From Thermodesulfobium narugense DSM 14796 (GTDB lineage Bacteria > Thermodesulfobiota > Thermodesulfobiia > Thermodesulfobiales > Thermodesulfobiaceae), in assembly GCF_000212395.1 (NCBI RefSeq), contig NC_015499.1, positions 1,561,421 through 1,625,420 on the forward strand: DNA of 64,000 nt, read 5' to 3'. The notes beneath the pieces are model-generated. The model made no database searches. It was not told the DNA's origin and saw only the letters and a list, made by a program, of their open reading frames with translations. The position numbers and the translations under genes were made by a program. This document shows positions 41,270-55,861 of this stretch, piece after piece (within the stretch, counting starts at the first letter, position 1; the number at the start of each line of letters is the position of its first letter).

Positions 41270-42331
41270 GTGGGCAACTTCCCAAAGCTTACTTCTTTAG
41301 TTCGTTGTGCTGGCTGAGCTGCTAAATTAAATCCAAAGGACCTAGGTGAGGTTCTAAAAGATTTACCAAAATTTGAACATCCAGGCCTTATTTTCAATTC
41401 TGACGGCCTTGATGATGCTGGAGCTTTTGTTATAAAAGACGACATAGCCATTGTCCAATCTGTCGACTTTTTCCCTCCTGTGGTAAATAGCCCTGACCTA
41501 TACGGTAAAATTGCAGCAGCTAATTCTCTTTCCGACCTATATGCAGTTGGTGCAAAACCTATTACAGCTTTAAATATTTTAGGATTTCCAAGATATGATA
41601 TTGAACTAAACGTTATAAATGAAATACTTAGAGGCTCTCACGAAAAGATAAAAGAAGCTGGCGCACTGATACTTGGTGGCCACAGCATGGACGATATAGA
41701 ACTTAAATATGGACTTAGCGTTACGGGAATTGCAAAAAAAGACGAGTTAATAACTCACAGTAACGCACAACCTGGAGACATAATAGTTCTCACAAAACCT
41801 CTTGGTACCGGGATACTAACTTCCGCTCTAAAAATTGAGCTTATTGACGAAATAGATATGCAAGATGCTCTCAACTCTATGCAAGAGTTAAATTATTTTG
41901 CAGGTGAAGCACAAAAAAGGTTTAAAGCGAGTTCTGGCACAGACATTACAGGTTTTGGATTAATCGGTCATGCAGTTAACATAGCAAAATCTAGTAATGT
42001 TATATTTGAAATATTTGCAAATTCTTTGCCTGTTTTTGAAAAAGTACTAGAACTCGCAGATGATGGAGTATTACCTGCAGGAATATTTGCAAATATTGAC
42101 TTCTACAAAGACAACGTAGTTGAAATAGGAAAGATCCCAGAAAGTTACAGGTATGTTGTCTACGATCCACAAACTTCTGGAGGCCTACTTTCCACTTATA
42201 AACCAAGTGTTGTAGACGATGTTTTAAGATTTCTAATCAATAACAAAGTGAGCGCGCACATTATAGGTGTTGTCAAAAAGGGTTCAGTTTTTAATCCTGG
42301 CACAATTGTTATTAAAGAAGGGTCTATTTGA
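41270..42331 (+). CDS. selD: Selenide, water dikinase with selenocysteine at position 16
   Basis: SelD makes selenophosphate from selenide and ATP, the selenium donor for Sec-tRNA. The gene starts at GTG 41270 behind AAGGAGGTG. Codon 16 is an in-frame TGA (41315-41317) in RCAG-U-AAK, aligning with the catalytic Cys17 of E. coli SelD before the conserved Lys. Many Sec-using bacteria encode Sec here. Downstream motifs include NSDGLDDAGAF, VDFFPP, GGHSM and the DPQTSGG segment. A shorter reading from 41480 would lose the catalytic loop. The protein has 353 residues. Its end overlaps the ABC permease start by 4 bases. Confidence 0.95.
41338..41354 (+). promoter_or_regulatory. SECIS-like hairpin of selD
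   Basis: GGACCT and AGGTTC form a 6-bp stem (one G-U) with loop AGGTG, starting 20 bases after the TGA. The loop contains the GGU seen in bacterial SECIS apical loops bound by SelB. Assignment is by position and shape. Confidence 0.6.
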
Positions 42332-53572: not shown

Positions 53573-54223
53573 ATGAACATAGTACATATTTTTTCAGGAG
53601 GATTAGATTCCACAACTCTCTTGTATTATCTATTAAACCAAGGCCATAAAGTCAAGACAATAAGCTTTTTCTACGGCCAAAAGCATAAAAAGGAGCTTGA
53701 ATGTTCAAAAAATATTGCCAGAAAGCTAAATATAGAAAATAAATTAATTGATCTAAGCGCTCTAAAAGATATATTTGGAAAGAGTTCTCTAACTAGTGAC
53801 ATGGATATACCTGAAGGCCACTATAATGATACAAATATGAAATCTACAGTAGTTCCAAACAGAAATATGATTTTTCTATCAATCGCAATTTCTTACGCAA
53901 TATCCTCAAACTTTGATGCAGTATCAATAGGAGTCCATGCAGGAGACCATGCAATATATCCAGACTGTCGCCCTGTTTTTATAAACAAGATGAAAGATGT
54001 TGCAAAGGTTTCAGACTATAGTGAAATAGGCATACTTGCACCTTTTTTAGATCTCAAAAAATACGAAATTGTAAAAATAGGCCTGGAATTGAAAGTCCCC
54101 TATGAAATGACATGGACATGCTATAAAGGAGAGGAAAAACCCTGTCTAAAATGCGGTTCATGTACAGAAAGGCTTGAGGCATTTGAATTAAACAATGTGA
54201 AAGACCCTTTAGTCTTTATTTAA
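53573..54223 (+). CDS. queC: 7-cyano-7-deazaguanine synthase
   Basis: A 216-residue enzyme making preQ0 for queuosine, an ATP-dependent PP-loop synthase. It begins VHIFSGGLDSTT (PP-loop) and has VPNRNMIFLSIA, GVHAGDHAIYPDCRP and the zinc-binding C-x7-C-x2-C-x2-C (CYKGEEKPCLKCGSC). ATG 53573 has GAGGAGAAAA in front. It overlaps by 15 bases, tail to tail, with the selenoprotein gene on the opposite strand. No other queuosine genes are in the window. Confidence 0.96.
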   Translation: MNIVHIFSGGLDSTTLLYYLLNQGHKVKTISFFYGQKHKKELECSKNIARKLNIENKLIDLSALKDIFGKSSLTSDMDIPEGHYNDTNMKSTVVPNRNMIFLSIAISYAISSNFDAVSIGVHAGDHAIYPDCRPVFINKMKDVAKVSDYSEIGILAPFLDLKKYEIVKIGLELKVPYEMTWTCYKGEEKPCLKCGSCTERLEAFELNNVKDPLVFI

Positions 54224-54427
54224 CTCCTTTCTTGACTCCTCCACTACACGGTGGACATCAGCCAGACATCAGGTACCCTTGGGATTGTTCAAATGGCACG
54301 CACACTTACCATCTTTCTTTTTATTTACTATAAACTGTTGGATCTTGGAAGTGCCGTTGTTCTTTAACACATCTTCTTTAATCTCTTCATCAGTAAAACC
54401 AAAGCAATAACAAATAACCTGACTCAT
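54209..54427 (-). CDS. Small [2Fe-2S] BFD/CopZ-like selenoprotein (UGA = Sec53)
   Basis: This 72-residue protein is hidden by an in-frame TGA (54271-54269). Before it are CYCFGFT (C6, C8) and DGKCACHLNNPKG (C42, C44). After it the frame continues as Sec53-C54-LADVHRVVEESRKELNKD to a TAA. The family of small [2Fe-2S] proteins related to BFD and the N-terminal CopZ domain normally reads CxC...CxC...NPxGxCCLGDV, so the UGA replaces the first Cys of the CC pair. A SECIS-like hairpin follows at the usual distance, and selD in this window is itself a Sec gene. It might supply or chaperone Fe-S or metal. Start ATG 54427 has only a weak GTGGTG site. Confidence 0.82.
54234..54259 (-). promoter_or_regulatory. 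SECIS-like hairpin of the small selenoprotein
   Basis: On the minus strand TCCAC (54255-54251), loop CGUGUA and GTGGA (54244-54240) form a 5-bp stem, with GAT/GTC possibly extending it. The loop lies about 18-24 bases after the UGA and contains GU, as in the E. coli fdhF SECIS. Confidence 0.6.
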
Positions 54428-54598
54428 AATACACCACTTTTCTAAAGTATAATTATGTTTATTATAATATAAAAAATATAATTATAAATAAATAAAGGAG
54501 GTGTTGTCCATGTTAATCAGATGATTTTGAAACAAAATTTTAAACAGATACGTAGTTTACGTATCACAATACCTAAAATTAGAAAAAGGAGAAATATT
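54428..54598 (+). promoter_or_regulatory. Leader of the double-cubane protein gene with palindrome
   Basis: A strong AAAGGAGGTG at about 54495-54504 precedes a four-codon ORF (ATG 54510) that stops in ATGA. An 8-bp perfect palindrome, GATACGTA-GTT-TACGTATC (54547-54565), lies before the real site AAAAAGGAG. It may be a translational leader or operator. Confidence 0.45.
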
Positions 54599-55861
54599 AT
54601 GGACAACACCAAAATGTACAAATCGCTTGGTATAGATTTAGATGCCCACGATACCCTAATGGGGGCACTTCCAGAATTATTCAAAGAATGTTTTCTAAAT
54701 AAAGAACAGGATCTCAAAGGCCTCTCATATTTTTATTCAGTAGTTGCAGATATACACGGAGCAAGGGTAAAAGAATTAATAGAACACAAAAATAAAGGAC
54801 CAGTTATTGGTTCATTTTGTATTTACGTACCAGAAGAAATAATTTTGGCTGCATGTGGACAGCTAGTAGGCCTTTGTGCAGGAGCTGATTTTTGGGTTCC
54901 ATATGGTGAACAGATAGTACCAAAAAATCTGTGCCCATTAATAAAAGCAGGTATTGGAGCAAAATATTCAAGAACTTGCCCATACTTTCAGGTAGTAGAT
55001 TTATTAATAGGAGAAAATACCTGTGATGGTAAGAAAAAGGCATGGGAAATATTTTCCGATATGGTCGAGATGTATGTAATGGATATGCCAAACAAAAAAA
55101 GCGAGTTAGGGCTGAAACTTTGGCAGGAAGAAGTAAAAAATTTATGTAATTTTCTAGAAAAAAAATTTAGTAAATCCATCAGCTTCGATTCTCTTTTAGA
55201 TGCAATTCAGAAAGTAAATGCAAAAAGAAGTGCACTAAATAGACTTTATGAAACTAGAAAAAATTCTCCTACTCCAATATCAGGAATAGATGCCCTGTTA
55301 GTTACGCAAATAGGTTTTTATGATGACATAGAAAGATATACAAAAATGGTAAATGCCCTCGCACAAGAATGTGAAGAAAAAGTATTATCAAATTTTAAAA
55401 ATAATGGTAGAAAAAGGATCTTGGTTACAGGTTCTCCAATGGTTGTGCCCAATTGGAAGATCCATCATGTAATAGAAACAAGCGGCGCAGATGTGGTAGT
55501 TGAGGAAAATTGCACGGGCACAAGATATTTCAAGGACAATGTTTCAATAGAAAATGCATCAAGCAAGGGAGATTTACTCAAGAATATATCAGATAGATAC
55601 ATAAATAACATAAATTGTGCATGCTTTTCTCCAAATAGAGGGAGAGAGGAAGACATACTAAAACTTTGTAAAGATTATAAATGTGATGGCATTGTTTACG
55701 TATCTCTTAGCTTTTGTACTACCTATATGGTAGAAGCAGAAAGAATAAGAAAAGTAGCTAAAGAAAACAGTATACCTATGATGACAGTAGAATCAGACTA
55801 CTCATTTTCGGATCTAGGTCAACTTAGAACGAGAATAGAAGCATTTATAGAAAACCTATGA
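54599..55861 (+). CDS. Double-cubane-cluster / 2-hydroxyacyl-CoA dehydratase D-type protein
   Basis: A 420-residue protein of the HgdB/BcrC family. A single subunit plus one activator is the arrangement of the double-cubane cluster protein (DCCP) of Carboxydothermus, which uses an [8Fe-9S] centre to reduce small molecules such as acetylene at ATP cost. Dehydratases need two such subunits. Cysteines occur in IGSFCIYVP, LCAGADFW, RTCPYFQ, NCTGTR and LSFCTTY. ATG 54599 with AAAAAGGAG is preferred over the frame from 54521. It overlaps the activator by 4 bases. The substrate is unknown. Confidence 0.85.
   Translation: MDNTKMYKSLGIDLDAHDTLMGALPELFKECFLNKEQDLKGLSYFYSVVADIHGARVKELIEHKNKGPVIGSFCIYVPEEIILAACGQLVGLCAGADFWVPYGEQIVPKNLCPLIKAGIGAKYSRTCPYFQVVDLLIGENTCDGKKKAWEIFSDMVEMYVMDMPNKKSELGLKLWQEEVKNLCNFLEKKFSKSISFDSLLDAIQKVNAKRSALNRLYETRKNSPTPISGIDALLVTQIGFYDDIERYTKMVNALAQECEEKVLSNFKNNGRKRILVTGSPMVVPNWKIHHVIETSGADVVVEENCTGTRYFKDNVSIENASSKGDLLKNISDRYINNINCACFSPNRGREEDILKLCKDYKCDGIVYVSLSFCTTYMVEAERIRKVAKENSIPMMTVESDYSFSDLGQLRTRIEAFIENL

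Follow-up and report, generated by a model that had tools for sequence, protein, structure and literature searches.

The window, a 64,000-nucleotide stretch of the Thermodesulfobium narugense DSM 14796 genome (a single contig of 1,898,865 bases), contains a 72-codon gene whose in-frame UGA at codon 53 is almost certainly decoded as selenocysteine (Sec), and very likely within a CopZ/BFD-type domain (Table 1). This selenoprotein reading, put forward by the first-pass annotation, is well supported by the selenocysteine machinery of the genome, conservation of the gene in four of four genomes, a U-C pair in 64 of 65 related TGA genes and covariation in the downstream hairpin. The selenoprotein appears to have been called correctly from raw sequence, where ordinary open reading frame calling trims the gene to 52 residues. 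An ATG opens the frame, which runs from 54427 down to 54209 on the reverse strand; translation table 11 returns a 52-amino-acid product (54269–54427), and reading through the TGA gives 72 amino acids, bearing out the strand, coordinates and sequence originally claimed. The 3′ end of the gene overlaps by 15 bases with a convergent gene ending at 54223, here called queC after the first-pass annotation.

Table 1. Features of the selenoprotein locus and of selD, in window positions.
Feature	Position	Strand	Basis
Predicted selenoprotein gene, 72 codons, UGA 53 as Sec, TAA at 54209–54211	54209..54427	−	Read-through translation; TGA orthologues in 4/4 phylum genomes
In-frame UGA, codon 53, GTUC motif	54269..54271	−	Column U or C in 27/27 rows
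Codons 6–8, Cys-x-Cys, presumed first two [2Fe-2S] ligands	54404..54412	−	C6 and C8 invariant; aligned with Cys75 and Cys77 of 2HU9; ligand role presumed
SECIS-like hairpin core UCCAC-CGUGUA-GUGGA, loop 18 nt past UGA	54240..54255	−	Folds; covariation over 32 genes; five core pairs in 56/57 subfamily-a genes
Sigma-70-like promoter candidate TGGACA-18-TATAAT, 11/12	54481..54510	−	Consensus scan
selD, selenophosphate supply, own in-frame TGA at 41315	41285..42208	+	TIGR00476, 323 bits; 1 TGA inside

Selenocysteine machinery and conservation of the UGA

The components sought in a genome with bacterial selenoproteins, SelA, SelB, tRNA-Sec and SelD, were all detected. SelA scored 531 bits (cut-off 268), SelB 367 bits (cut-off 242), SelD 323 bits (TIGR00476, cut-off 125) and tRNA-Sec 74.3 bits (gathering score 47), with the tRNA gene ending 36 bp before the SelB match. 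The absence of selB or selC had been named in advance as an argument against the selenoprotein, and selA, selB, selC and selD all stand above their cut-offs. Weak matches in these searches were common among control genomes, but the cut-off was passed by only 1 to 5 of 14. SelA is a poor predictor of the TGA form, since it exceeded its cut-off in five of five TGA genomes but also in 12 of 25 other matching genomes. The selD gene is, from its sequence, probably a second selenoprotein gene within the window, its TGA standing in the context CAG-U-AAK and being followed by a hairpin (−8.9 kcal/mol for 50 nt). Four selenoproteins have been counted by deep-Sep in a Thermodesulfobium genome, in a passage that does not name them (PMC12013277).

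The TGA lies at the same codon, with the downstream frame retained, in all four genomes compared from the phylum (T. narugense included, all of one genus), and the other three proteins are 82–86% identical to the one in the window. Before the TGA, Ka is about 0.09–0.10 against a Ks that is near 1 or saturated (five divergent comparisons). Codons 54–62 show no nonsynonymous and at most two synonymous changes in six pairwise comparisons, and codons 63–70 are more variable (Ka 0.295, four comparisons between two sub-clades). Judged by these substitutions, the frame after the TGA is under purifying selection in 4/4 genomes.

Relatives outside the genus carry the same codon. Among 386 genomes searched with the NF047645 profile, 30 matched and five had TGA at the place of U53, four of them from the own genus and the fifth being G026, a genome of another phylum. 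We then applied a profile of 27 rows (A3) to 395 genomes of the phylum of G026, 72 of which matched at E up to 1e-8. The form is common there, with 65 rows having exactly one TGA and seven having none. L118 apart, whose frame was not read, every TGA gene has U followed by C at the codon-53 position (64/65). The rows without TGA have Cys-Cys in five cases (L114, L116, L123, L136 and L146) and Ser-Cys or Gly-Cys in L128 and L129. Conservation after the UGA, whose lack in relatives had also been set as a test by the first-pass annotation, was found both within the genus and in these relatives from the other phylum. Matches were found in 5/50 genomes of a further phylum, that of G144, with TGA in none of them.

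The 66 TGA genes that could be anchored form two subfamilies: a, with 57 loci among which are those of the window's genus, and b, with nine loci marked by TGAC or TGVC in their latter half. Among the 14 most and 12 least similar of the 66, the best identity to the 62-residue core of the protein outside the genus was 0.61, and the nine loci of subfamily b ranged from 0.23 to 0.32. A search of genome contigs with another profile (A2) gave L028, 81% identical, as sole relative. Subfamily b (L119, L121, L122, L124, L125, L126, L127, L130 and L131) consists of small TGA genes of the phylum of G026 with the pattern CYCxGVTKG...TGAC...PRGRUCSREI. In a variant clade of selenoprotein relatives (L107, L108, L110, L111, L112, L115 and L117), HP replaces NP before G-x-U-C. 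In four Cys-form CopZ N-terminal relatives (L036, L040, L041 and L042) the frame enters, or precedes, hydrophobic sequence with a CCWLPLLLL-type stretch, which to us recalls MerT.

The hairpin downstream of the UGA

The hairpin with a GU-containing loop that had been noticed about 18 bases downstream of the UGA is present, its loop reading CGUGUA and lying at 18 nt. Bacterial SECIS elements are described as having a loop 16–37 nt after the UGA with a G within the first two loop places, on a stem of 4–16 bp, and an energy of −7.5 kcal/mol or lower (PMC13188914). The candidate agrees with each of these rules, with a 5-bp core and an energy of −12.2 kcal/mol when 44 nt from the UGA are folded (z −1.97, 6/200 shuffles as good). 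The 51-nt fold from the UGA was not significant (z −0.91), and Rfam gave no match in the region of the gene. The energy of this single sequence is modest evidence for a SECIS element.

The comparative evidence for a SECIS element is strong. The 15 bases GTC-CAC-CGT-GTA-GTG over the hairpin core are all identical across the four genomes of the genus. A wider set of 32 genes was assembled from 28 of the 65 TGA genes in the phylum of G026 and the four of the genus, in which 88.8% of 224 cells pair, against 32–55% when the register is slid. Changes on both sides were seen for four of the seven pairs, and two pairs are reversed in L087 (GC to CG and CG to GC). On each of five measures, all 500 shuffles fell short of the observed genes, in a comparison where the shuffles do not remove relatedness. 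All five core positions pair in 56 of the 57 anchored subfamily-a genes but in only 1/9 of subfamily b, whose hairpin register differs and which was excluded from the SECIS evidence.

These observations bear on whether the UGA is a true stop, so that a protein of 52 residues, or a gene in decay, would end there and the remainder would be residual similarity. The 52-residue product of table 11 would fit such a stop, which is nonetheless very improbable given the purifying selection on the downstream frame, the U-C pair in the TGA genes of the phylum of G026, the covarying hairpin and the complete machinery of the genome. We rejected a stop or pseudogene on codon conservation, these TGA rows and the covariation. 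The favoured reading is that SelB and Sec-tRNA would insert selenocysteine at UGA 53 under the direction of the downstream hairpin, as machinery, conservation and covariation together suggest.

Domain family and candidate cluster ligands

Two forms of a "(2Fe-2S)-binding protein (copper chaperone CopZ family)" are already listed as predicted selenoproteins (PMC13188914, PMC9312934). The 2026 table (PMC13188914) gives the motif GxUC for form 1 and CU for form 2, and credits PMC2398784, the main text of which does not contain the words copper, chaperone or 2Fe-2S. Form 1 is entered with cd10141 and WP_245779778.1, and a function or operon is named for it in neither list (PMC13188914, PMC9312934). 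The predicted protein of the window resembles form 1 in its CopZ-like BFD domain and in its GTUC with a single Sec, encoded by one UGA, and by the listed motif it is form 1. As the family was already listed, the words "hidden" and "unusual" in the first-pass annotation overstated the novelty of the protein; what is gained is one more phylum for a selenoprotein form that has been little described.

The best match was NF047645 (CopZ_Nterm_CC, putative iron-sulfur cluster-binding metallochaperone; E 1.3e-16), covering residues 3–58 and hence both sides of the UGA. This match spans model positions 86–137 of 138 rather than the full length, and its 61.1 bits fall below the cut-off of 100; the family has Cys-Cys where the window has Sec-Cys, and its N-terminal half is missing from our protein. 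The Csac_0668 family (form 2, NF045877) shares the domain and is also a predicted selenoprotein, but its Sec is second of the pair (CU) whereas that of the window is first, and its model of 161 positions includes an N-terminal part missing here. Membership of the CU form was rejected, the score being 27.8 bits where the cut-off is 190. Bfd (Fer2_BFD, PF04324) resembles the window's protein in its N-terminal CxC and the helix after it but differs from the C-x8-UC of the second half, and the score of 19.1 bits is below the gathering score of 26.

The N-terminal domain of Archaeoglobus fulgidus CopZ (2HU9) has the same CxC...C...NPxGxCC pattern, but with Cys where the window has Sec, a fused copper chaperone, and an additional N-terminal part before residue 73 with a zinc site. 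The selenoprotein gene encodes a stand-alone domain without this N-terminal zinc domain. A profile matched residues 73–124 of 2HU9 at E 2.2e-10, a significance reached only with the profile; phmmer with the single sequence against the PDB placed beta-2-microglobulins (from E 0.18) ahead of 2HU9 (0.88). AlphaFold2 on the single sequence gave a poor model (pLDDT 59, pTM 0.37), which counts against the assignment, as do the Pfam and NCBIfam scores below their curated cut-offs. Counting from the alignment, Cys75, Cys77, Cys109 and Cys118-Cys119 of 2HU9 align with C6, C8, C44 and U53-C54; literature searches for the ligand numbering of this CopZ domain gave nothing usable.

In the A3 alignment (22 Cys rows and five Sec rows, numbered by the 72-residue protein) the invariant columns are C6, C8, C44, N48, P49 and position 53, the last being Cys or Sec in 27/27 rows. 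Cys homologues at the UGA position, which are sought as a mark of bacterial selenoproteins and whose lack was the remaining test set by the first-pass annotation, exist in 22/22 Cys rows, 20 of which have the Cys-Cys that had been claimed for relatives. C54 is present in 25/27 rows (lost in L051 and L054) and C42 is variable. A bound [2Fe-2S] cluster is suggested by the homology to 2HU9 together with invariant C6, C8, C44 and position 53, and would be held by Cys6, Cys8, Cys44 and one of Sec53-Cys54, with the selenol as fourth ligand or beside it.

Which of the two adjoining residues serves as ligand is a matter on which the evidence divides. The UGA may be decoded but Cys54 be the ligand, with the free selenol of Sec53 adjoining as a reactive group for redox chemistry or metal(loid) capture, an arrangement to which we give about an even chance. 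L128 and L129 retain Cys at 54 with Ser or Gly at 53, and the last helix, by its hydrophobic pattern, best accommodates the last ligand Cys of Bfd at 54 (compared by eye). Form 2, too, carries its Sec in the second place, as CU (PMC13188914). Conservation in A3 instead favours position 53, which is Cys or Sec throughout, whereas 54 is lost in two rows. Of the proposal that Sec replaces a probable cluster or redox cysteine, the Cys column bears out the replacement, but the ligand role may belong to the neighbouring residue; as far as the data go, Sec would lie at or beside the cluster. If Sec53 does ligate it, the protein would hold a native Fe–Se bond in 72 residues, small enough for direct spectroscopy.

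Gene neighbourhoods and possible role

Neighbours within about 5 kb were clustered for 67 anchors of the 76 loci; nine loci had no anchor, and a spurious anchor of L128 was dropped. An ArsP_1 permease recurred at 25 loci, in 24 cases upstream and in 22 on the same strand; there were also an ArsR-type regulator and a small Thioredoxin_3 protein at 16 loci each, an LMW-phosphatase-type protein read as ArsC at 13 and an SBF-family protein read as ACR3 at seven, the Pfam names being those of one representative per cluster. By tblastn, with queries taken from the family loci themselves, at least one of permease, ArsC and ACR3 was found at 20/53 subfamily-a loci outside the genus and 8/9 subfamily-b loci, against 1/40 control windows. 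At least two of permease, ArsR, ArsC and ACR3 were found at 17/53, 7/9 and 0/40, respectively. The imperfectly matched controls came from 17 genomes of the phylum of G026, at round coordinates on long contigs.

This frequent location in arsenic operons, in the phylum of G026, appears to be a new functional lead for the form. Literature searches and a term search of PMC13188914 turned up no published statement that ties form 1 to arsenic operons; one may be in Haft and Gwadz 2023 or Haft and Tolstoy 2025. The neighbourhood of the relatives suggests a small selenol/Fe–S centre that transfers electrons to soft metals or metalloids, or binds them and passes them on, and such a metal(loid) or redox role seems to us as probable as its opposite.

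A job specific to the family in detoxifying arsenic, or organoarsenicals, with an ArsP-type permease is possible but rather doubtful. The permease cluster and the co-occurrence of arsenic genes argue for it, but permease, ArsC and ACR3 are absent within 5 kb at 33/53 subfamily-a loci and at all four loci of the window's genus, and the operons may merely have acquired a general reductase. Against it, too, stand the Cys homologues on plasmids (26 records), of which one lies beside a MerT-family gene, one lies inside a gene labelled merA, and several are labelled copper chaperone CopZ family. The fullest version, in which a native [2Fe-2S] cluster has a Sec ligand (Fe–Se bond) and the protein belongs to a widespread stand-alone selenoprotein family that reduces soft metal(loid)s, arsenic for one, or passes them on, working in many anaerobes with an ArsP-type permease, is unlikely.

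In the genus of the window, arsenic, copper and mercury genes were not seen within 5 kb of the gene. Beyond queC, the same strand encodes two Gate-domain (nucleoside recognition) proteins. Upstream, on the opposite strand, lie a double-cubane-type reductase (NF040772, 470 bits, above the cut-off) and then an acyl-CoA dehydratase activase.

The leader of the reductase gene (54497–54611, forward strand) has a strong Shine-Dalgarno site, a mini-ORF (ATG TTA ATC AGA TGA) and a hairpin, ATACGTA-GTT-TACGTAT, at 54548–54564. Folding of the leader RNA gave −32.2 kcal/mol (z −5.48, 0/200 shuffles as good), and its core is conserved in 4/4 genomes. A segment of it, GGTGTTGTCC (54500–54509), is complementary to the reductase start, GGACAACACC (54601–54610), and the leader may be one that masks the start codon. 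The promoter candidate of the selenoprotein gene is weak, the scan of the region giving eight sites against 6.2 expected, and TGTCCA in the reductase leader doubles as the −35 candidate of the selenoprotein gene.
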